Below are positions 17,468-61,954 of a stretch of 64,000 nt of DNA, piece after piece. The position numbers and the translations under genes are program-made. How positions within the stretch are numbered: the stretch's first letter is position 1; each line of letters starts with the position of its first letter. This DNA comes from an uncultured Paracoccaceae bacterium. Lineage in GTDB: Bacteria > Pseudomonadota > Alphaproteobacteria > Rhodobacterales > Rhodobacteraceae. The notes beneath the pieces were generated by a model. The model saw nothing but the letters and a program-made list of their open reading frames with translations, ran no database searches and had not been told where the DNA came from. The stretch is taken from assembly GCA_913041145.1 (NCBI GenBank), contig CAJWHE010000002.1:62001-126000 (forward strand), written 5' to 3'.

Positions 17468-18373
17468 TTAAGATAAAATTTCACAAATCTTATCAAGCTC
17501 TGACAAACTATCGTATGATATATTAACCACTCCAACACCCGACAATGCTTTATGGTTTATTGTTACCTTAAGACCAGTGTTTAAGCTTAACTGGTTCTCC
17601 AGTTCTATTGTATCTGCGAGCTTTCTATTATTATTCGTATTCTTTAAATCTAATCGCACACTTTTCTTTTTTGAAATTCCCCTTACCATCGCCTCTGTTT
17701 CCCGGACACTAAGGCCTTGGTTTACTATTTTTCTTGCAATTGAGCTTGGGTTTTCTGTTGTAATAATTGCTCGCGCATGGCCAACCGACAATGACCCATC
17801 TTGCACCCAATCAAGAACAAGACTGGGCAAAGTTAATAACCTTAAAGCATTTGTAATATAGCTCCTACTCTTTCCTAGGGCTTGAGAAAGCTGTTCCTGA
17901 CTCTGTGCAAATTTTTCTTGTAATTGCTTGAAACCTAAAGCTTCCTCAACTGGATTCAAATCTGATCTTTGAATATTCTCTATAATTGCAACCTCGAGAA
18001 CCTCTAGATCCGAGAACTCCCCAATGACAACGGGCACCTCATGGACTTGTGCCAGTTGTGCTGCCCTCCAGCGTCTCTCCCCTGCCACAATTTCATATAA
18101 ATCAGGAACTTTTGGGTCAGGCCTTACTAATATAGGTTGTAGAATTCCCTTAGATGCTATTGATGCAGCCAGCTCTTCTAAGGGCTTTTTTGAGAAAACT
18201 TTCCTAGGTTGGTTTTTATTGGGCCTGATTAACTCAATAGAAATCTGTTTTTTACTATCAGCTTTATTTGGATCCGGACTCGAAAACTCTTCCGAGAGGG
18301 CTGCATTAGCCATTAATTCAGATAGACCCCTTCCAAGAGCTCTCTTTGCCTTTGTTTTTATTGATTTTGCCAT
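17468..18373 (-). CDS. parB: Chromosome partitioning protein ParB
   Basis: A 301-residue ParB. The N-terminal CTPase/ParB domain has LIRPNKNQPRKVF and the GERRWRAAQLA motif. The central helix-turn-helix is QEQLSQALGKSRSYITNALRL, and the C-terminal dimerisation part begins after a basic linker. ParB loads at parS and slides along DNA as a CTP-dependent clamp. Two perfect parS sites lie 1.4 and 3.3 kb away, in rsmG and mnmG. It follows parA by 10 bp. Confidence 0.97.
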   Translation of the reverse strand: MAKSIKTKAKRALGRGLSELMANAALSEEFSSPDPNKADSKKQISIELIRPNKNQPRKVFSKKPLEELAASIASKGILQPILVRPDPKVPDLYEIVAGERRWRAAQLAQVHEVPVVIGEFSDLEVLEVAIIENIQRSDLNPVEEALGFKQLQEKFAQSQEQLSQALGKSRSYITNALRLLTLPSLVLDWVQDGSLSVGHARAIITTENPSSIARKIVNQGLSVRETEAMVRGISKKKSVRLDLKNTNNNRKLADTIELENQLSLNTGLKVTINHKALSGVGVVNISYDSLSELDKICEILS

Positions 18374-18383
18374 TTATCCACTC

Positions 18384-19175
18384 CTAGTTAACTTCATGTC
18401 TTGATAAAATCTCTAATGCTAACGCCTTATAAGCAAATGCCCCTTTTGATCTTGGCGAGTAATCGAAGATAGACTTTCCATATGATGGAGCTTCACTTAA
18501 CTTTACACTTCTCGGGATGACTGACTGATAAACAAGTCCCTTAAGGTTGTCTCGAACATCTTCTTCAACCTGCCGACTGAGGTTGTTCCTTTTATCAAAC
18601 ATTGTTAAGACAATTCCTTCAAACCTTAAAGCTGGGTTTGCTGTATCTCGAATTTCCTTAACGGACAACATGAGTTGGGAAAGCCCTTCAAGTGGAAGGA
18701 ACTCGGCTTGCAGTGGAACAAGAACAGAATCAGAGGCTACAAGAGCATTTATTGTCAAAAGGTTTAAAGAAGGTGGGCAATCTATTAATATATAGTCCAG
18801 TTTGTTTTGATTAAAATCAACAGCATTTATTTTCTCTTTTAAAACAGTCACTTGTTCAGATTTTTTTAATAAAACTAAGTCAGCTGAGCTTAAGTCTACT
18901 GTTGCCGGCGCCAAAAGAAGACCTTCAATGCCTACCTTTACAAAGGTAGAAAACAAGTCACTATCACCTACTAACAAATCATACGTTGTTTTTAAGCGCT
19001 CTTGAGCTTCTAAACCTAAAGCGGTTGAGGCATTTCCTTGTGGATCGAAATCTATAACACCAACGCTCTTTCCTTGCAAAGTCAAAGCAACAGCCAAATT
19101 AATTGTCGTTGTAGTTTTTCCTACTCCACCTTTTTGATTTGTAACCGATATTACCCTTGGCTTCTTGTATGCCAT
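18384..19175 (-). CDS. parA: Chromosome partitioning ATPase ParA
   Basis: A 263-residue ParA/Soj ATPase. The deviant Walker A is TNQKGGVGKTTTTINLA, with GVIDFDPQGNASTALG and ILIDCPPSLNLLTINAL following. It binds DNA non-specifically as an ATP dimer and pulls ParB-parS complexes apart. Its start lies 1 bp past the rsmG stop, and parB follows, giving the usual alphaproteobacterial rsmG-parA-parB order. The operon reads away from the proposed origin. Confidence 0.97.
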   Translation of the reverse strand: MAYKKPRVISVTNQKGGVGKTTTTINLAVALTLQGKSVGVIDFDPQGNASTALGLEAQERLKTTYDLLVGDSDLFSTFVKVGIEGLLLAPATVDLSSADLVLLKKSEQVTVLKEKINAVDFNQNKLDYILIDCPPSLNLLTINALVASDSVLVPLQAEFLPLEGLSQLMLSVKEIRDTANPALRFEGIVLTMFDKRNNLSRQVEEDVRDNLKGLVYQSVIPRSVKLSEAPSYGKSIFDYSPRSKGAFAYKALALEILSRHEVN

Positions 19176-19176
19176 A

Positions 19177-19788
19177 CTATCTTTTCTCCAAATCTGATAT
19201 TATTAACATTGCCGACAATGGGTTAGTGACGCTCTCTTTTATTTTAATACTAAAGTTCCAACACTCAAGCGCTTCCTTAATTTCATCTTTATAGCTTTCC
19301 CCTTTTAAAAAAACACAAAACCCTCCTTTTTTCAAATGCCTATTTGAAAAAAATAAAAGTTTTTTCAGTGGAGCCAATGCTCTAGCTGTTATAACGTCAG
19401 AATTCATCTCACAAATATCTTCTACCCGATCCGACCAGACAGAAGAGTTTAAACCAAGAGTTCTTACTGTGTCTCTTAAAAAAACAGCTTTTCTTTGGTC
19501 TGACTCTACCATTTCTACCCTTATTAGAGGGAGTTTTTCACTAGCAATAATTGCCAAAACTATTCCAGGAAAACCACCACCAGACCCAAAATCTAAAACT
19601 TTAGTTTGTGCTGCGGAAAGTGTTTCAAAAACTTGTGCAGAGTCCAAAAAGTGTCGATTCCAAACATCATCCGTGCTTTTTTTTGAAATAAGGTTTATTC
19701 TCTTATTCCACTGAAGAAGTCTCTCTTTGTAGATCTCCAACTTATGAAATGTTTCACGTGAAACATTTAAATTATCCCAAAAATCCAA
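19177..19788 (-). CDS. rsmG: 16S rRNA (guanine527-N7)-methyltransferase RsmG
   Basis: A 203-residue RsmG (GidB). The SAM-binding core is VLDFGSGGGFPGIVLAI and the N-terminal helix region has LLQWNKRINLISK. It methylates G527 of 16S rRNA; loss gives low-level streptomycin resistance in other bacteria. The start is a TTG at 19788 with AGGGA five bases upstream. Residues NVSRETF near position 8 are encoded by a perfect parS site, so these residues are probably dictated by the DNA element rather than by enzyme function. Confidence 0.95.
   Translation of the reverse strand: MDFWDNLNVSRETFHKLEIYKERLLQWNKRINLISKKSTDDVWNRHFLDSAQVFETLSAAQTKVLDFGSGGGFPGIVLAIIASEKLPLIRVEMVESDQRKAVFLRDTVRTLGLNSSVWSDRVEDICEMNSDVITARALAPLKKLLFFSNRHLKKGGFCVFLKGESYKDEIKEALECWNFSIKIKESVTNPLSAMLIISDLEKR
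19750..19765. other. parS centromere site inside rsmG
   Basis: The 16-bp palindrome TGTTTCACGTGAAACA matches the parS consensus exactly. The symmetry extends to 22 bp (19747-19768). It lies within codons 8-14 of rsmG and about 1.4 kb from parB. ParB should load here. Confidence 0.95.
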
Positions 19789-19807: not shown

Positions 19808-21676
19808 TCAAGACGCTTTCTTTATTTTAAGATTGGCAAGAATTAGGGTGAGTGCGGCTGGTGTTATCCCATCTACCCTTGACGCTTGTCCTATATTCTC
19901 TGGCCGAGAAATTGATAACTTTTGAGTCAACTCATTGGACAGACCGGATATATTATAGTAATCGAAATCTAAAGGAAGAACTACACTCTCGTCTCGCTTT
20001 AAAAGTTCGGCATCACGCAACTGTCTACCAACGTAATTTGAATATAAAGCATCTCTTTCAACCTGCTCTTTACACTCATAGCTAATGTCAGAAAGCTCAG
20101 GCAATGCTCCCAAAAAGTAATCTACTTTTACGTCTGGAAATGCCAAAAGTTCCATCATAGTTCTACGTTTGCCATCCTTTTTAACCTTTATATTATACTT
20201 ACTTGCCTCTTGTGGGCTTAAGTGGTGTTTGTTTAACAGTCTTTTGGCAATGTTTAGAGTTTCCATCTTCTCCCTAAACACTTTTTTCCTAACCTCTCCA
20301 ACGCACCCTAGTTTAAGCCCATATTCAGTCAAACGTTGATCAGCATTGTCCGCACGCAATGAAAGCCTAAACTCCGCCCTAGATGTAAACATTCTATAGG
20401 GCTCTTCTACCCCACGCGTAACTAAATCATCTATCATTACCCCAATGTACGAGCTTGAACGTGTAAACTCGACTAAATCAAGGTCACGAACTTTATTAGC
20501 TGCGCTGAGACCGGCGACTAAGCCCTGAGCTGCCGCCTCTTCGTATCCTGTTGTCCCGTTAATTTGGCCCGCCAGATACAAACCCTTAATGTTTTTTAGC
20601 TCCAAGCTCTTCGTTAAAGCGCGTGGGTCAACGTAATCGTACTCAATCGCATACCCCGGTTGTATTATACGTGCTGCCTCAAGCCCAACTATCGACCGTA
20701 CATACTTATCTTGAACGTCTTCAGGCAGAGATGTCGAAATTCCATTTGGATATACTGTATGATCATTTAAACCTTCTGGTTCAAGAAAAATTTGATGTTC
20801 GTTTTTATCAGGGAAACGTACAACTTTATCCTCAATTGATGGGCAGTATCGAGGACCAGTACTATCAATTTTTCCACCGTAAATTGCTGATTTATCAAGA
20901 TTTTCTCTAATTATATCATGCGTTTTATTATTTGTGTGTGTTAACCCACAAGAAACCTGCCTAATAGATGGCTTCTTTGATAAAAAGGAAAACATACTAG
21001 GGTCATTATCCCCAGGTTGAGATTCTAAAGCTGACCAATTTATGGTTCGACCATCTAATCGAGGGGGTGTTCCAGTTTTAAGGCGACCAAGTGGGAGTTG
21101 AAACGTTTCCATACGCTCCGCAAGTGTAATAGAAGGCTCATCACCAAGCCGGCCCCCAGAAGTCTTTTGTTCCCCGACATGCATAACACCTCTCAAAAAA
21201 GTTCCAGTTGTCAAAATAACAGCTTTACTCTTGATTATAGATTCATCTTTTAGTTTAACTCCTAGAACCGTATCCTTACTCACATAGAAGTCAGAAACTT
21301 CGCCCTCTAAAACCGACAGGTTTTCTTGAAGGTTAAGAAGTTTTTGAACACTGTGTCGATAAACGTTACGGTCAGCTTGTGCCCTGGGACCCTGGACTGC
21401 TGGCCCCTTACCCCTGTTTAGAAGACGAAACTGTATTCCTGCTTGGTCTGCCGCAAGGCCCATTATTCCGTCCATAGAATCAATTTCTCTAACTAAGTGT
21501 CCCTTTCCAAGACCGCCTATGGCAGGATTACAGGACATGACACCAATAGTCTCTACTTTGTGGGTTATTAAAAGGACCTGAACTCCCATGCGGGCTGCAG
21601 CATGTGCTGCTTCCGCCCCGGCGTGACCACCACCAACAACTATTACATCAAACTGACCTTGTTTCACGTGAAACAT
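19808..21676 (-). CDS. mnmG: tRNA uridine-5-carboxymethylaminomethyl modification enzyme MnmG
   Basis: The protein has 622 residues from the ATG at 21676 (MFHVKQ), chosen because mnmE stops 4 bp upstream and alphaproteobacterial MnmG proteins commonly begin MFHVK. AGGAGG abuts this ATG, so initiation at the GTG three codons later is possible. The FAD motif [33 protein letters not shown] and the C-terminal helical domain are present. With MnmE it makes cmnm5U34 in tRNA anticodons. The first codons are a parS site. Confidence 0.97.
21660..21675. other. parS centromere site at the mnmG start
   Basis: A second exact TGTTTCACGTGAAACA overlaps the proposed mnmG start codon and encodes the residues MFHVKQ. 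Unlike the rsmG copy, the symmetry stops at 16 bp. The two sites are 1.9 kb apart. Confidence 0.95.
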
Positions 21677-21680
21677 CCTC

Positions 21681-22961
21681 CTATTTTCCGATACAAAAGT
21701 TTGCAAATATTTCATCTAATAGATCTTCGACACCCACACTGCCCACCATAGTTTCTAAGGCTATAATACCGGACCGCAACTCTTCTGCAGCAATCTCGGA
21801 ACGAACCACATCTCTTTTTAACTCTTTTTTACAATTTTTTAAAGCGCCAACCGATACTATCATTGCTCTTCTGTGTCTTTCATTGGTCGCTATTCCAGCC
21901 CCCAAAGCCAGTTTTGAAAGTTTTTCTGACACTAAATCAATTAGTTCTGGTACTCCATAACCAGTTAGCCCTGAAACACCTATTCCAGAAAGGTCGCCCT
22001 TTGAAGCAATTTCTATATCCAACTCTTGTTTAACAATAAACTCTTTAAGGGTTTCTTCTCCAGTTAAAAAGATTCGTAAGTCTGCTGTTTCGGCTCGATC
22101 TCGCGCTCTCTTAATCCCAAGAATTTCGACTTCATTTTGTGTTTCTCTTAGGCCTGCAGTATCCAAAAATGTAACTGGTAATCCATTTAAATCCATACGG
22201 ACCTCAATTACATCCCGTGTGGTTCCCGCGACCTTTGATGTTATAGCTGCTTCTCGACCTGCTAAAGCATTAATGAGAGTTGATTTCCCAACGTTTGGAG
22301 TCCCTATAATTGCTACCTCAAATCCTGACCTGACTCTTTCTGATAGTTTAGTTGAATCAATCTCCTTTTCTAACTCAACAATAGTTTTTGTGACCAGACC
22401 CAATACTCTTCCAATAAGTCCTGTCGGTATATCTTCTTCTGAAAAATCTATTGTAACTTCAATAAGAGATCCCGCCTGTATTAGGTAAGCCCTCCACTCT
22501 ATTACTTTTTTTCCAATTGATCCATCAAAAACCCTTAATGCTTGCTTCCTCTGTGCTTCTGTCTCCGCGTTGATAAGATCTGCTAAGCCCTCTATCTGTG
22601 CAATATCTAAACGATTGTTCTCTAGTGCTCGGCGAGTAAACTCACCAGGCTTCGCTTCCCTATGGTTAGGCTGTAAAATAAGTTCGCTTAATAGTTTACT
22701 TATAACTGCTATACTACCATGCAAATGGTACTCAACAACAGTCTCACCTGTAAAACTTGCCCCTGTTTCAAAAAACAAAATTAAAGCCCTATCAATTAAT
22801 TCACCGTTTTGATCTTTAAGCCCTTTTAATACTGGCTGACCTGTACGAGGTTTAAACCCAGCTATCTTTTTACAAGAATCTACCGCTGCGTTACCCGAGA
22901 CACGAATAACAGATATACCTGCCTTACCGTAAGCTGTTGATAGCGAAAAAATTGTGTCCAT
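21681..22961 (-). CDS. mnmE: tRNA modification GTPase MnmE
   Basis: A 426-residue MnmE (TrmE/ThdF). The N-terminal formyl-THF-binding domain begins [20 protein letters not shown]. The inserted G domain has [24 protein letters not shown] and weaker later G motifs. The C-terminus ends in the diagnostic CIGK. It partners with MnmG, encoded 4 bp downstream, in wobble-uridine modification. The protein is slightly short for the family (about 450), but all domains are visible. Confidence 0.97.
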
Positions 22962-22984: not shown

Positions 22985-24256
22985 TTACGTATTCATTGAG
23001 TCAAAAAATTCAGTGTTATTCTTTGTTTGTTTTAGTTTTCCTATTAAAAATTCTATCGCATCTGTGGTACCCATAGGGTTTAAAATTCGTCTAAGAACAA
23101 ATGTTTTTTGTAAATCAGCTTTACTTACTAATAGTTCTTCTTTTCTGGTGCCTGACTTTAATATGTCCATAGATGGATACACGCGCTTATCAGCAACCTT
23201 TCTATCTAAAACTATTTCAGAGTTACCTGTACCCTTGAACTCTTCAAAAATAACCTCATCCATTCGAGAGCCAGTATCTATTAGTGCTGTAGCAATTATA
23301 GTAAGTGATCCCCCTTCTTCAATATTTCGAGCAGCACCAAAAAACCTTTTTGGTCTTTGCAAGGCATTTGCATCTACACCACCAGTCAACACCTTTCCTG
23401 ATGATGGGACAACTGTGTTAAAAGCTCTTCCTAGGCGGGTTATTGAATCTAAAAGTATAACAACGTCTCTTTTATGTTCTACAAGTCTTTTAGCTTTTTC
23501 TATAACCATCTCTGACACGCCAACGTGTCTTGTAGCCGGTTCGTCAAAAGTTGAGCTTACAACCTCTCCTTTTACAGATCTTTGCATATCCGTAACTTCT
23601 TCTGGCCTTTCATCAACTAGTAAAACTATTAAAAAACATTCCGGATGATTTTTTTCAATTGAATTCGCTATGTTTTGAAGCAATACTGTTTTACCAGTCC
23701 TAGGAGGCGCAACTATTAAGCACCTTTGGCCTTTCCCTATGGGGGCTACTAAGTCTATAATTCTAGCAGACCGGTCCTTAATAGTGGGGTCCTCTATTTC
23801 CATTGTTAAACGTTCATCCGGATATAGGGGTGTTAAGTTATCAAAACTAACTTTATGGCGCGATTTCTCAGGCTCTTCAAAATTGATTCTGGTGACCTCT
23901 GTCACGGTAAAATACTTTTCATTTTCAACTGGAGAACACATAACCCCTTCAACAGTATCACCAGTTCTCAACGAGAAATTCCGGATCATATCAGGTGATA
24001 GATAAATATCATCTGGGCCGGGTAAGTAATTTGCTTCTGGAGATCTTAAAAACCCAAAACCATCTTGTAATACTTCTAGTACTCCATCCCCTGAAATAAC
24101 CCACCCATCTTCTGCTCTCTCTTTTAAAATAGAGAACATTAAGTCACCTTTTCTCATTGTAGACGCGTTTTCGATTTCTAAATCTTTTGCCATACTAACT
24201 AAATCAGCAGGAGTATGTTTTTTTAGCTCAACAAGGTTAAGACTGTTTTCAGCCAT
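22985..24256 (-). CDS. rho: Transcription termination factor Rho
   Basis: A 423-residue Rho. The N-terminal domain has [20 protein letters not shown] and the RNA-binding cold-shock-like part has [20 protein letters not shown]. The ATPase core has [15 protein letters not shown] (Walker A) and [16 protein letters not shown]. Rho is an RNA-dependent hexameric helicase that ends transcription. It lies 23 bp upstream of mnmE on the same strand. Confidence 0.98.
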
Positions 24257-24353: not shown

Positions 24354-24806
24354 TTAAAACGGCTTTATAATAACACTCAAAACTATTACTATTAATAAAA
24401 TTGTTGGAACTTCATTCAAAAATCTAAAGTATCTACCAGTTTTAACATTATTAAAATTGAGAAAATTTTTATAAGTAATATTTAAATAAAAATGATAATA
24501 AGTAAGAATTACTAAAGACATTAATTTAATCCAGGGCCAATATAAACCCCAATCTATTACACCAGGAGTAAAAACTAATAAAATACCGAATATCCATGAA
24601 GCAATTAACGCCGGTTTCATTATATAATGTAATAGCTTCATTTCCATAATTAAAAATGTATTATACTGAACAGATTTTATATCTGAAGTCTCAACGTGGT
24701 AAACAAATAGTCTTGGCAAGTAAAATAGACCGACCATCCAACAAATAACAGATATAATGTGAGCGGCTTTTATCCATAAATAATACTCTATTAAAATGGT
24801 GCTCAT
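24354..24806 (-). CDS. hemJ: Protoporphyrinogen IX oxidase HemJ
   Basis: The protein has 150 residues from the ATG at 24806 (MSTILIEYYLWIKAAH). Upstream in-frame codons are low-complexity sequence from the intergenic region and are left out. Four hydrophobic membrane helices are visible, with the family His in WIKAAHIISVICWMVGL and the MKLLHYIMKPAL segment. HemJ oxidises protoporphyrinogen IX in the inner membrane. Relatives usually have hemE or other heme genes beside rho and hemJ; here none follow. Codon usage is more AT-rich than in rho. Confidence 0.9.
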   Translation of the reverse strand: MSTILIEYYLWIKAAHIISVICWMVGLFYLPRLFVYHVETSDIKSVQYNTFLIMEMKLLHYIMKPALIASWIFGILLVFTPGVIDWGLYWPWIKLMSLVILTYYHFYLNITYKNFLNFNNVKTGRYFRFLNEVPTILLIVIVLSVIIKPF

Positions 24807-25129
24807 AATTTTTACTGCTTTCTTCTTTAATACTACTATATAAATATATTTATATATAAAGAAAGTAGTAGTTGATGGTGTTGTGGATAAGAGGGATAAA
24901 ATATTTATGCACATACTTATCAAATATAAATAAATAAATAAAAGGCTACAGGGCTAGATTATAATCGCTGATACAAACTTATGCAGTGTCTGTTATTAAA
25001 GAATATGAACAACCTAAAAAAATTTAATAACAAGTGGATTAATATGAATAAGAAAAAATGATTAAGTATTATGTGTAATTACTACCTTTATACACATATA
25101 AAACACCACTAATAATACAGGTTATTAAC
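24807..25129. other. oriC: Candidate chromosomal replication origin (oriC) between hemJ and maf
   Basis: A 323-bp, very AT-rich, gene-free gap. It has one exact DnaA box, TTATCCACA on the minus strand (24882-24890). Two sites fit the looser TTATNCACA: TTATGCACA (24905-24913) and TTATACACA (25088-25096). A 20-bp AT-only palindrome lies at 24837-24856, and AATA repeats at 24925-24942 could form an unwinding element. Genes point away on both sides, parABS is 3-7 kb to the left, and the hemE/rho-to-maf neighbourhood is the classic alphaproteobacterial origin location. It must also contain the hemJ and maf promoters. Confidence 0.7.
24837..24856. repeat. 20-bp AT-only palindrome upstream of hemJ
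   Basis: A perfect inverted repeat made only of A and T, flanked by TACTAC (24831-24836) and its inverse GTAGTA (24865-24870). It lies 30-50 bp before the hemJ start inside the candidate origin. It could be an unwinding element, part of the hemJ promoter, or chance in AT-rich DNA. Confidence 0.5.
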
Positions 25130-25732
25130 ATGAAAATAAATATAATATTAGCATCTGGGTCTCATATAAGAGCAACACTATTACGAAGTTCGGGTGTAGT
25201 TTTCGATGTAAAAAAACATAAAATAGACGAGGATAAAGAAAAAAAAACCTTAATTAAAAATAATATTATAACAAAAGAAATATCTATGACTCTCGCAAAA
25301 AGGAAAGGAATGTGTGTTTCGAAAAATTATAAAAACTCTTTCATTATAGGTTGCGATCAAGTCCTTGTTTTAAATAATTTAATCTTCTCTAAAGCGAAAA
25401 ACCCCTCTGACTTGAAACAACAGCTCTTATTGCTTAACGGAAAAAGCCATAAGTTATACTCGTCTTGTGTTGTCTTATATCAGGAGGAAATAGTTTGGTC
25501 ACATACAGCAGAAATAGTGTTACTTATGAGAGAATTAAGTCAAAGAGAAATAAATACTTATGTTGATAAAAACTGGCAAAGTGTAAAAAATAGTGTTGGA
25601 GGTTACCTTATAGAATCAACCGGAAAGAAATTATTTAAAACTATACATGGAGACTACTTTTCAGCGTTAGGTTTACCTATAATAGAGTTACTAAATTTTT
25701 TGATTTCCAAAAAAGCTGTAAATATTGTGTAA
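25130..25732 (+). CDS. maf: Maf-family nucleotide pyrophosphatase
   Basis: A 200-residue Maf/YceF/YhdE-family protein. The N-terminal ILASGSHIRATLLRSSGV is the family signature and IIGCDQVLVL holds the acidic active-site residue. VGGYLIESTGKKLF follows near the C-terminus. Maf enzymes hydrolyse modified or canonical pyrimidine triphosphates and affect cell division when overexpressed in other bacteria. It is the first gene right of the candidate origin, and coaE follows 24 bp downstream. In related genomes aroE often sits between these two genes; here it does not. Confidence 0.9.
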   Translation: MKINIILASGSHIRATLLRSSGVVFDVKKHKIDEDKEKKTLIKNNIITKEISMTLAKRKGMCVSKNYKNSFIIGCDQVLVLNNLIFSKAKNPSDLKQQLLLLNGKSHKLYSSCVVLYQEEIVWSHTAEIVLLMRELSQREINTYVDKNWQSVKNSVGGYLIESTGKKLFKTIHGDYFSALGLPIIELLNFLISKKAVNIV

Positions 25733-25756
25733 AAGATTAAGAAAGTTTTTAAATTT

Positions 25757-26353
25757 ATGGGAAAATTAATAAAAATCGGTCTAACAGGATGCATAGGTAT
25801 GGGGAAAAGCACAACTTTAAAAATGTTTGAAGACGAGGGAATTTTAACATGGAGTGCAGACGAAGCTGTTAGCCGACTATACGAAAAAGATGGGGAAGCT
25901 GTTTTAAAGGTCCAATCTCTAACACCCGAAAGTATTGTTAATAATTCTGTTTCGAGAGAGAACTTGAGAGAACAAGTAAAAAAAAGGCCAGAAATATTAT
26001 TATCCTTAGAGTTAATAGTTAACCCACTTATTAAAACTGATAGGGAAAATTTCCTTCGTTCTAATAGCCAAGAAAAAGCAGTAGTCTTAGATTTACCTCT
26101 ATTGTTTGAGAACAAAATGGAATCAGATTTTGATAAAATTGTAGTCGTAAGCGCTTCGGCGAGGGTACAAAAAGAAAGAGTTCTTAGTCGTAACACTATG
26201 GATATTAAATTATTAAATATAATAAAGTCTAAACAAATATCTGATAAAGAAAAAAGATCTAGGGCAGACTTTATTTTTGAAACAACATCAATCGAAAGAA
26301 CAAAAGAAGATGTTAAGAAATTTTTAAAAGAAGTAGGTATTAGCAATGCGTGA
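25757..26353 (+). CDS. coaE: Dephospho-CoA kinase
   Basis: A 198-residue CoaE. The P-loop is IGLTGCIGMGKSTTLKMF at the N-terminus, followed by WSADEAVSRLY with the substrate-binding acidic residue, and VVLDLPLLFENKM in the lid and core region. It phosphorylates dephospho-CoA in the last step of CoA synthesis. It overlaps dnaQ by 8 bp, and the coaE-dnaQ pair is widespread in alphaproteobacteria. Confidence 0.96.
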   Translation: MGKLIKIGLTGCIGMGKSTTLKMFEDEGILTWSADEAVSRLYEKDGEAVLKVQSLTPESIVNNSVSRENLREQVKKRPEILLSLELIVNPLIKTDRENFLRSNSQEKAVVLDLPLLFENKMESDFDKIVVVSASARVQKERVLSRNTMDIKLLNIIKSKQISDKEKRSRADFIFETTSIERTKEDVKKFLKEVGISNA

Positions 26354-27041
26354 AATTGTAATGGACACAGAAACTACCGGACTCGATCCCTACCAGGGTC
26401 ATAAAATAGTAGAAATAGGAGCAATCGAATTATTAAACCATATTCCGACAGGCAGAACTTTTCATAAATATATAGATCCAAGAAGGATAATGCCAAAAGA
26501 GGCATTTGATGTTCATGGGCTAGATAATGAATTTTTAAAAGGAAAGCCAGTATTCAAAGATATTGCTGATATGTTTTTAGAGTTTATAGAAGATTCTACC
26601 TTAGTAATACACAATGCGAATTTTGACATTAAGTTCTTAAACCATGAGTTAGACTCTATAAGCTTGAAAGCGTTAAAAAAGGATAGAGTTCTTGACACAT
26701 TAGCGTTAGCAAGAAAAAAATTTCCGGGGTCTCCAGCATCTCTTGATGCTTTATCTAGGCGTTTCAAAGTTGACCTTTCTAAACGAGAAAAGCACGGTGC
26801 ACTTTTAGACAGTGAAATTCTAGCAGCGGTCTATTTGGAGTTAATAGGTGGTAGACAACCTGACTTGATTTTAACTTCAGAGGGTGGGAGGTCTTCTAAT
26901 ATAAGACCAATAGGAAATCTTACACCACTAAGTAGAGAAAATCCCTTACCAGAACGTATTACAACTTCTGAAACGGAAGCACATAAAACCTTTTTAAAAA
27001 GCTTTTCTAACGAGGCATTATGGAATAAATTAACTAATTAA
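26346..27041 (+). CDS. dnaQ: DNA polymerase III epsilon subunit (proofreading exonuclease)
   Basis: A 231-residue DnaQ. Exo I is VMDTETTGLDPYQGHKIVEIG with the Asp-x-Glu pair, Exo II is LVIHNANFDIKFLNHEL, and Exo III epsilon is the HGALLDSEILAAVYLEL segment with His and Asp. It proofreads replication errors within Pol III. The start overlaps coaE by 8 bp and the 3' end overlaps convergent secB by 8 bp. Confidence 0.97.
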   Translation: MREIVMDTETTGLDPYQGHKIVEIGAIELLNHIPTGRTFHKYIDPRRIMPKEAFDVHGLDNEFLKGKPVFKDIADMFLEFIEDSTLVIHNANFDIKFLNHELDSISLKALKKDRVLDTLALARKKFPGSPASLDALSRRFKVDLSKREKHGALLDSEILAAVYLELIGGRQPDLILTSEGGRSSNIRPIGNLTPLSRENPLPERITTSETEAHKTFLKSFSNEALWNKLTN

Positions 27042-42361: not shown

Positions 42362-43414
42362 ATGAGTAATGACAAAACAGTAACAAGAAATAACATTCCC
42401 AAAAACCATCCACCGGTTAACCCAGAAAAAATAGGAATATTATTAACAAATCTGGGCACACCGGATCACTATTCTTATTGGCCAATGAGAAGATATTTAG
42501 GTGAGTTTTTATCAGATCAGCGGGTTGTTGATTACTCACCTTGGCTGTGGCAACCACTTTTACAGCTCATTATTTTAACAAAAAGACCTTTTACTAGTGG
42601 AGCGGCTTACAAGAGTATTTGGAACCATGAACAAAATGAGAGCCCACTATTAACAATAACCAAAGCTCAGACAGAAAAAATTAAAGAAAAAATGTTTGAT
42701 CAGTACGGGGACAAAGTTTTAGTAAACTTTTGTATGCGTTACGGCAACCCATCGACAAAATCAGTAGTCAAAGATTTAATTAAAAAGGGGTGCAGGAAGA
42801 TTCTGTTTTTTCCACTCTACCCTCAATATGCTGGAGCAACATCGGCCACAGCTAACGACGCACTGTTTAGAACATTAATGACTGAAAAATGGCAACCAGA
42901 TGTCCGAACTATATCAGCATATTTCTCGCACCCAGCATATATTAATGCTTTAGCAAAATCTGTCGAGAAAGCGTATCTCAAAATACCAGATAGGCCAGAT
43001 ATTCTAGTTTGCTCTTATCATGGGGTTCCCAAAAGGTATTTAATGGAAGGAGACCCCTACCACTGTCAGTGTCAAAAAACGACGAGGCTACTAAAAGAAC
43101 GTTTGGGTTGGGAGGACACAGAAATAGTTACAACATTTCAGTCTCGATTTGGGCCAGAGGAATGGTTGCAACCATATACAGTTAAAGAGGTTGCTAGGTT
43201 AGCACAAATAGGAAAAAAGAAATTAGCAGTTATCGCCCCTGCTTTTTCATCGGATTGTATAGAGACCTTAGAGGAAATAAATGAAGAAATTAAAGAGAGC
43301 TTTGAAAAAGCAGGAGGTGACCAGTTTACATATATACCCTGTTTAAATGATGACCATGACCACATCATAGCACTAAGTAAAATTATTGATGATAATTTAT
43401 TAGGTTGGGTTTAA
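42362..43414 (+). CDS. hemH: Ferrochelatase
   Basis: The protein has 350 residues from the ATG at 42362 (MSNDKTV); a start at 42323 would overlap the preceding gene by 35 bp. Family motifs are GILLTNLGTPDHYSYWPMRR, LSDQRVVDYSPW, FCMRYGNPS, and CSYHGVPKRYLMEGDPYHCQ with the metal-binding His. It inserts iron into protoporphyrin IX. It shares heme synthesis with hemJ, 18 kb away. The 220-bp gap to mutT shows no clear terminator. Confidence 0.97.
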   Translation: MSNDKTVTRNNIPKNHPPVNPEKIGILLTNLGTPDHYSYWPMRRYLGEFLSDQRVVDYSPWLWQPLLQLIILTKRPFTSGAAYKSIWNHEQNESPLLTITKAQTEKIKEKMFDQYGDKVLVNFCMRYGNPSTKSVVKDLIKKGCRKILFFPLYPQYAGATSATANDALFRTLMTEKWQPDVRTISAYFSHPAYINALAKSVEKAYLKIPDRPDILVCSYHGVPKRYLMEGDPYHCQCQKTTRLLKERLGWEDTEIVTTFQSRFGPEEWLQPYTVKEVARLAQIGKKKLAVIAPAFSSDCIETLEEINEEIKESFEKAGGDQFTYIPCLNDDHDHIIALSKIIDDNLLGWV

Positions 43415-60501: not shown

Positions 60502-60516
60502 GTTCACTGTTTGTTC
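60502..60516 (-). promoter_or_regulatory. Alphaproteobacterial LexA (SOS) box of dnaE2
   Basis: On the plus strand the site reads GTTC-ACTGTTT-GTTC, an exact GTTC-N7-GTTC LexA operator of alphaproteobacteria. It lies 13-27 bp before the dnaE2 ATG. A perfect minus-strand -35 TTGACA at 60546-60551 places the operator near the transcription start. Confidence 0.85.
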
Positions 60517-60745
60517 TTTATCTAAATCTTATTTATATTGATGTATGTCAATACATTTTCAGATCTTAGTTATCATAAGGCTAATATAGTTAAAGGTATG
60601 TGCAACTATTTCCTAATAATTTAAATTATATTGTTAGTATTGTGATAAGAAAAAAAATGTATTCTCTATTAAATAAAAGAACCTTAGGTTTTTTTAACTT
60701 TTTGGTGTTTAATCAAGATATTATAAAAATAGGAGTATAAAAACT

Positions 60746-60919
60746 ATGTCGTTGAACAATTACCTTAAGAAACTAAAAAGTAAGCATCTGACATTGAAGG
60801 ACAACATAAAAAGTGCGCAGGCGAATTTAGCAACAGATGATAAAAATATTGTTCTTATGAAAAAAATGAAACTAAGAATAAAAGAGAAAATTTTTAGAAT
60901 GGAACAGAATTTTAATTAG
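60746..60919 (+). CDS. DUF465 (YdcH-like) small protein
   Basis: A 57-residue gene with AGGAG ten bases before its ATG. The sequence is MSLNNYLKKLKSKHLTLKDN, then a helical stretch with IVLMKKMKLRIKEKIFRME, matching the DUF465 pattern of an N-terminal LKxKH and a C-terminal Lys-rich KLxxKExI helix. It probably forms a helical hairpin; the family function is unknown. Such genes are abundant in alphaproteobacteria. Confidence 0.8.
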   Translation: MSLNNYLKKLKSKHLTLKDNIKSAQANLATDDKNIVLMKKMKLRIKEKIFRMEQNFN

Positions 60920-61288
60920 ATATCAAAATTGGTATTTTTAAAAATTATGGTTTAATTTCAGTTGTACTATTTCTAGTTTTTTAAAACTGTAATTAGTTAT
61001 AATAATTAAATTTAATATTAGGGCAAAAATTAATGATTCAGTTATAGTTCTAGGTTTAGATTAGAATAATAACTAGATAAGAACCCTTGGCATTTATTTT
61101 TTAGCTTAGTTTTTGGTAAAATGGGGAAGATGTTTGATTAAAAATAGAAGATATGAGTTACTATACCAAAAAAAGAAAGAGTAACTTTACATACTTTAAT
61201 ATTATAAATTTAAAGAGATATTAACTGGAACCTATACAATTTATAGTAAAGTTCATATTACTTATTATAATCTAAAATTGGAAACACT
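60920..61288. other. Gene-free AT-rich stretch before the GST gene
   Basis: This 369-bp region has no convincing gene, tRNA, hairpin terminator or repeat. One 23-codon frame (61153-61224) exists with only a weak SD-like AGAAG and no recognisable family. The region probably holds the GST-queG promoter. Confidence 0.6.
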
Positions 61289-61954
61289 ATGCATCGCCTT
61301 TATCACTTTGTTCTTTCTCCTTTTTGTCGAAAAGTAAGATTAGTTTTGGCAGAAAAAAAAATTGAAATAGAGCTTATCCAAGAGCGTTACTGGGACAAAT
61401 CAGCTGATTTTTTAAAACGTAATCCAGCCGGAAAAGTTCCAGTTCTAAAAACTAATGGATTTTTTTTGAGTGATAGTCAGTCTATTTGTGAGTATTTAGA
61501 AGAAACACTACCAACACATGCGTTGATCCCAGAAGATTTTGTAGAACGTGCAGAAGTGAGACGGTTGGTTTTTTGGTTTGATGATAAGTTCTACAATGAT
61601 GTAACAGTAAATCTTCTTTATGAAAGACTAACAAAAAAAATAGTGGGATTAGGTCAACCTGATGGTCAAAAAATAAAAAAAGGTGCTCAAAACATAAAGA
61701 TTCATTTAGATTATATGGATAAACTTTTAGAAGATAGATCTTGGCTTGCTGGTAGTTACCTAACTCTTGCTGATTTTACCGCTGCTGCGCACCTTTCATG
61801 CCTTGATTATATTTCAGATGTTGATTGGAATAGAAGTAGTAATGTTAAAGATTGGTATGCAAAAATAAAGTCTCGACCGGCTTTTAGATCAATTCTAGCA
61901 GATCAGGTTTCAGGGTTTCCACCACCGCCACATTATACGGATTTAGACTTTTGA
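61289..61954 (+). CDS. Glutathione S-transferase family protein
   Basis: A 221-residue GST. The thioredoxin-like N-terminal domain is [20 protein letters not shown] with a Ser-Pro-Phe-Cys active-site region, and [13 protein letters not shown] and [11 protein letters not shown] follow. The C-terminal all-alpha domain has [20 protein letters not shown]. It likely acts in detoxification or a specific conjugation; the substrate is unknown. It overlaps the queG start by 4 bp. Confidence 0.9.

Follow-up and report, generated by a model that had tools for sequence, protein, structure and literature searches.

In Caulobacter crescentus the replication origin, Cori, has been mapped experimentally; it is flanked by hemE and COG1806 and carries an IHF site in addition to five sites for CtrA (PMC1914354). 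For the Rhodobacteraceae, the genome report of Ketogulonicigenium vulgare describes, from DoriC, a conserved oriC that adjoins maf (PMC4793288). A survey of closed Rhodobacteraceae genomes, which judged by DnaA boxes, by GC disparity and by how near parAB lay, is reported to have assigned oriC in 101 strains, with eight not assignable (PMC6699656). Closeness of parAB to the origin is described as an alphaproteobacterial rule with some exceptions in Rhodobacterales (PMC8116508). For the unwinding step, the rule published for the basal unwinding system (BUS) calls for a DnaA box with at most two mismatches, a spacer of 0–16 and at least three NAN trios; the spacing peaks at 10–13 and the commonest trio is GAT (PMC8287927).

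We analysed a window of 64,000 nucleotides, corresponding to bases 62001–126000 of contig C2 (146,511 bases) of assembly G000, which comprises 2.42 Mb in 118 contigs and is 97.3% complete. A sequence-only reading of this window had placed oriC in the gap between hemJ and maf. The cluster of DnaA boxes, its conservation within the genus, a switch in strand composition after correction, the family synteny and the presence of parS and parAB nearby all support that placement, and on this sequence evidence the gap is almost certainly the chromosomal replication origin. It is an origin of the known maf-adjacent Rhodobacteraceae type, at a site already reported for the family, and in that sense an ordinary one. 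The features are listed in Table 1.

Table 1. Positions (in the window) and strands of the candidate origin, its sequence elements and the flanking genes
Feature	Position	Strand	Remarks
parB	17468..18373	-	
parA	18384..19175	-	ParA/MinD-type ATPase adjoining parB; best NCBIfam model below cut-off
rsmG	19177..19788	-	
parS, perfect TGTTTCACGTGAAACA	19750..19765		Inside rsmG; 5.0 kb left of gap
mnmG	19808..21715	-	
parS, perfect TGTTTCACGTGAAACA	21660..21675		Inside mnmG near its start; 3.1 kb left of gap
mnmE	21681..22961	-	
rho	22985..24256	-	
hemJ	24354..24806	-	TIGR00701; start taken at 24806
Candidate oriC	24807..25129		Gap without genes; hemJ and maf point away from it; 323 bp, 76.5% AT
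AT-only palindrome	24837..24856		20 bp; perfect; single-copy within window; adjoins trios
Three DnaA-trio-like units	24863..24871	-	CTA CTA CTT on box strand, 10 nt from box 1
DnaA box 1, TTATCCACA	24882..24890	-	Starts box-trio-AT module; identical in G001 and G002
DnaA box 2, TTATGCACA	24905..24913	+	Reads TTATACACA in G001 and G002
AATA repeats	about 24925..24943	+	Kept in G001, in part in G002
Weak DnaA box, TTATTCATA	25043..25051	-	One mismatch
DnaA box 3, TTATACACA	25088..25096	+	Identical in G001 and G002
maf	25130..25732	+	
coaE	25757..26353	+	
dnaQ	26346..27041	+	

Comparison with described origins

Like the maf-adjacent Rhodobacteraceae origins, which are DoriC/Ori-Finder predictions as presented in PMC4793288, the gap lies directly upstream of maf and contains DnaA boxes. 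It is shorter (317 bp as cut for comparison versus 369–567 bp in 29 family loci outside the genus) and has a lower GC content (24% versus 33–60%); unlike at the usual Rhodobacteraceae locus, coaE follows maf with no aroE between them. Cori, described as a gap of about 400 bp, has a homologous gene neighbourhood, and both gaps contain DnaA boxes and an AT-rich tract (PMC1914354). Unlike Cori, it adjoins neither hemE nor COG1806, its flanks being hemJ and maf, and hemE was not found in the assembly; exact CtrA and IHF motifs are also absent from the G000 gap. The exact CtrA motif (TTAA-N7-TTAA) is likewise absent from the gaps of two genus mates, G001 and G002, and the exact IHF motif from that of G001, while G002 has two IHF-like matches. 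Exact GANTC and TGATCCACA do not occur in the G000 gap.

Gene neighbourhood and synteny

The gap is free of genes and its neighbours diverge from it, as the sequence-only reading had described. To the right of dnaQ follow secB, fxsA, a gene with a Tim44 domain and an mltA gene. The gene order is that of the standard alphaproteobacterial origin neighbourhood, and the flanks, rho/hemJ on one side and maf on the other with parAB–mnmG–mnmE to the left, are those of the maf-adjacent Rhodobacteraceae oriC. Four parS-like places with at most two mismatches occur in the assembly and only the two at 19750 and 21660 are perfect; these sites and parAB are close to the gap, as is known for origins with ParABS nearby.

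The 20 best matches of Rho (L031–L050; 82–87% identity) are all of Rhodobacteraceae kind (e.g. Marivivens, Celeribacter, Roseovarius), which assigns the organism to this family. Synteny was examined by tblastn of 13 genes (rho, hemJ, hemE, ppsR, maf, aroE, coaE, dnaQ, secB, mnmE, mnmG, parA and parB) in 92 fetched loci and the window; 12 matches in other family genomes were fetched for this check. The family set consists of 32 loci (L031–L050 and L121–L132), 31 of them with a right flank (L040 was dropped), and the non-family set of 60 loci, 46 with a recognizable right flank (14 were dropped). In all 31 family loci the gap is flanked by hemJ (26) or rho (5) on one side and by maf or aroE on the other; a recognizable hemJ is missing in five. 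Neither hemE nor ppsR (COG1806) was found at the right-flank spot in any of these 31, whereas the other alphaproteobacterial loci have hemE in 42 of 46 and ppsR in 43 of 46. L059, which belongs to these 46, bears a Rhodobacteraceae title and has retained both genes; the hemE-less locus is thus usual in the family but not universal.

The sequence-only reading had also held that hemE and the usual right-hand neighbours were lost from this location. The absence of hemE from the spot was borne out, but maf–coaE–dnaQ–secB are themselves the usual right-hand genes and are still present. A recent loss in this genome was rejected for hemE and ppsR, which are found at the spot in none of the 31 family loci, and was kept for aroE; the absence of hemE and ppsR beside the gap is mostly a family trait. 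The gene hemE itself was found in 20 of 21 family genomes outside the genus (the exception, G024, is 79% complete), directly beside hemJ in G007 and G020 and about 663 kb from hemJ in G006, a one-contig relative. At window positions 25733–25756, aroE, usual between maf and coaE, is absent from its spot, and the same holds in G001 and G002. Four of the 31 family loci showed no aroE. Two of them, L121 and L122, are genus mates in which coaE comes after maf; in the other two, L043 and L124, the sequence ends after maf.

A side observation concerns haem synthesis. Neither hemE nor hemC was found in G000 (97% complete), G001 or G002, whereas searches of G003, another member of the genus, found both. 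All four genomes have hemH (in G000 at C2:104422-105396, which is window 42422–43396), and hemB was found only in G000 and partly in G001. The missing hemE and hemC may reflect holes in the assemblies, or haem synthesis may truly be interrupted.

DnaA boxes and base composition

The three DnaA-box matches proposed earlier lie within 215 bp, and the AT-only palindrome and the AATA repeats were likewise recovered (Table 1). The number of matches to the box pattern TTATNCACA is not in excess, either across the window (four found, 2.87 expected; 28 of 100 shuffles reach four) or genome-wide (88 found versus 102 for a control pattern). It is their clustering that is unusual. When the gap, cut at 317 bp, was simulated with a first-order Markov model in 30,000 runs, TTATNCACA occurred zero, one or two times in 28,786, 1,192 and 22 runs, respectively, and three times in none. 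No second 323-bp stretch with at least two exact boxes exists in 1,549,551 bases (27 contigs) of the 2.42 Mb, and among the 88 TTATNCACA matches listed for the whole 2.42-Mb assembly no comparable cluster can be seen. The gap is less special when judged by one-mismatch boxes alone, with five in its 323 bp versus four at several other places. The gap holds what is expected of a bacterial oriC, an intergenic cluster of exact DnaA boxes that is unique in the genome as far as examined.

The AT content of the gap is at the 99th percentile among the 323-bp stretches of the window, and the AT-only palindrome, an AT-rich element adjoining a DnaA box as in bacterial origins, is on sequence grounds the probable unwinding element. 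Both G001 and G002 retain the core of this palindrome. At 79% AT, 60824–61146 is the most AT-rich of all 323-bp stretches in the window; it sits between listed ORFs (60507 to 61289) and is without any TTATNCACA match. Rfam models at gathering scores gave no match anywhere in the window.

Strand composition

The gap occupies positions 86,807–87,129 of C2. The plain cumulative GC skew of the contig is lowest at 101,990, which is 15 kb right of the gap; we ascribe this shift to gene orientation, a block of minus-strand genes (window 30.4–40.1 kb) pulling the minimum there. We removed the effect of gene orientation by scoring the GC skew at third codon positions by gene strand. On both sides, genes on the leading strand have a third-position skew of 0.24–0.26 and those on the lagging strand of -0.04 to 0.02. 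The best origin-type breakpoint of the corrected scan is at 89,568 with one antisense ORF dropped and at 87,692 with an automatic gene set; on a 1-kb grid it is at 87,000, but there the antisense ORF stood in place of coaE. In the scan with the antisense ORF dropped, the observed switch value was reached in none of 500 permutations and the gap boundary ranked seventh of 116. The third-position AT skew is weak and peaks at 94,952. An origin-type switch improves the description of C2 by 101 log-likelihood units versus a one-replichore model, and no gain in the origin sense was found on the other 26 of the 27 contigs or contig parts tested (1.55 of 2.42 Mb, seven contigs being represented by their first 20 kb only).

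The placement of the origin stood up to the GC-skew check that had been suggested for it, as far as 27 contigs or contig parts allow: the corrected switch is near the gap, although the raw contig minimum is 15 kb away. The raw minimum was rejected as a refutation of oriC, since the break corrected for gene strand is at most 3 kb from the gap. A composition switch within about 3 kb, as found here after gene-strand correction in a 118-contig assembly, is a property of bacterial origins. The bootstrap 95% interval of the breakpoint, 87,744–100,359, begins about 0.6 kb past the gap; 75% of the bootstrap peaks lie no more than 5 kb from the gap, while 24% are at 95–104 kb. The breakpoint evidence supports the neighbourhood of the gap, not an exact base.

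An interval that starts just to the right of the gap, together with the raw minimum at 101,990, leaves some room for a different reading in which the gap is a divergent hemJ/maf promoter with DnaA acting as a transcription factor and the origin is at 87.7–100 kb on C2. The genes do diverge from the gap, and DnaA is reported also to regulate genes in bacteria (PMC8739904). This arrangement is nevertheless very improbable, as two exact boxes occur in no other 323-bp stretch of the contig, other alphaproteobacteria are described as having their mapped or predicted origin in the orthologous gap (PMC1914354) and the maf-adjacent gap is the origin site reported for the family (PMC4793288).

Conservation in relatives

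Of three genus mates, G001 and G002 yielded the locus with hemJ; their gaps are 316 and 318 bp long and 86% and 74% identical, respectively, to that of G000. As the sequence-only reading would predict of an origin, both keep all three boxes, at the same positions; the columns of the boxes are invariant in 26 of 27 cases versus 186 of 294 for the other columns. The G002 gap contains a fourth exact box. In the wider family, boxes with at most one mismatch number at least one in 30, at least two in 26 and at least three in 17 of the 31 gaps, the single gap without any being that of L125. In other alphaproteobacteria such a box is absent from five of 46 gaps (L072, L073, L088, L095 and L102).

Some reduced genomes have origins that have moved or are DnaA-independent, and the gap might by analogy be a relic in which the boxes remain while initiation takes place elsewhere or by other means. 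We consider this extremely unlikely. The box columns are better conserved than the other columns of the gap, the composition switch is found here and on no other tested contig, and a DnaA with a helix-turn-helix DNA-binding domain is encoded in the genome, on contig C86, in a gene that reaches the contig end.

Putative unwinding module

Along the minus strand, a 10-nt spacer separates box 1 from CTA CTA CTT, after which comes the AT-only tract; the strand opposite the box strand reads 3'-GAT GAT GAA-5' over the trio-like units. This arrangement appears to resemble the BUS of Bacillus subtilis and others in its no-mismatch box, 10-nt spacer, three NAN trios starting with GAT GAT and AT tract. 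Trios were scanned by the published rule (PMC8287927), which replaced an earlier scan with a narrower unit, and the arrangement at box 1 conforms to it. The rule is loose in AT-rich DNA, and the gap contains five candidates, one of which has a perfect box. In simulated tails, CTACTANT occurred within 16 nt in 12 of 2,000. The box–trio arrangement of G001 is the same as that of G000; in G002 there are just two CTA units, and a trio candidate with a perfect box is lacking.

In the 125 nt proximal to hemJ, ATCATC, CTACTA or ACTACT is present in 20 of 27 gaps, whereas simulations averaged 2.9 and never exceeded 8; the count serves as a lead rather than a clean test, because the strings were picked after the sequences had been viewed. 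The 27 gaps, out of 32, include the window and the genus mates; five without a found hemJ were omitted. The commonest repeat of the family gaps has ATC on the box strand (3'-TAG-5'); it agrees with the loose NAN rule but differs from GAT, the commonest trio of BUS. Many family gaps have, in the same 125 nt, a box-like sequence (e.g. TAATCCACA), CCTA, ATCATCATC and a CTTTCTT-like tract, in that order (e.g. L033, L126, L131 and L132). This recurring order is a candidate for a family-wide unwinding module.

From these elements a course of initiation can be proposed. DnaA would bind boxes 1–3, and a DnaA filament would extend from box 1 across the trio repeats. The AT-only tract would be opened by DnaA and the helicase loaded there. 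The left fork would travel via hemJ, rho, mnmE, mnmG and parAB and the right fork via maf, coaE and dnaQ, both in the reading direction of the flanking genes, and ParB on the two parS sites would segregate the newly copied origins. A more far-reaching and rather doubtful proposal is that this is a stripped-down origin of ~320 bp, with three DnaA boxes and one box-trio-AT module as its only recognizable inputs, which may have lost the Caulobacter-type CtrA and IHF sites and in which DnaA alone would govern firing. The box–trio arrangement seen in family gaps would then be the shared unwinding core of Rhodobacteraceae origins.

Significance

The likely origin, and hence the direction of the replichores, is fixed for an AT-rich Rhodobacteraceae genus that is represented by fragmented assemblies. 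The box-trio-AT arrangement that recurs beside hemJ would give the family a concrete candidate unwinding site that can be put to the test; the remainder confirms a pattern already published.
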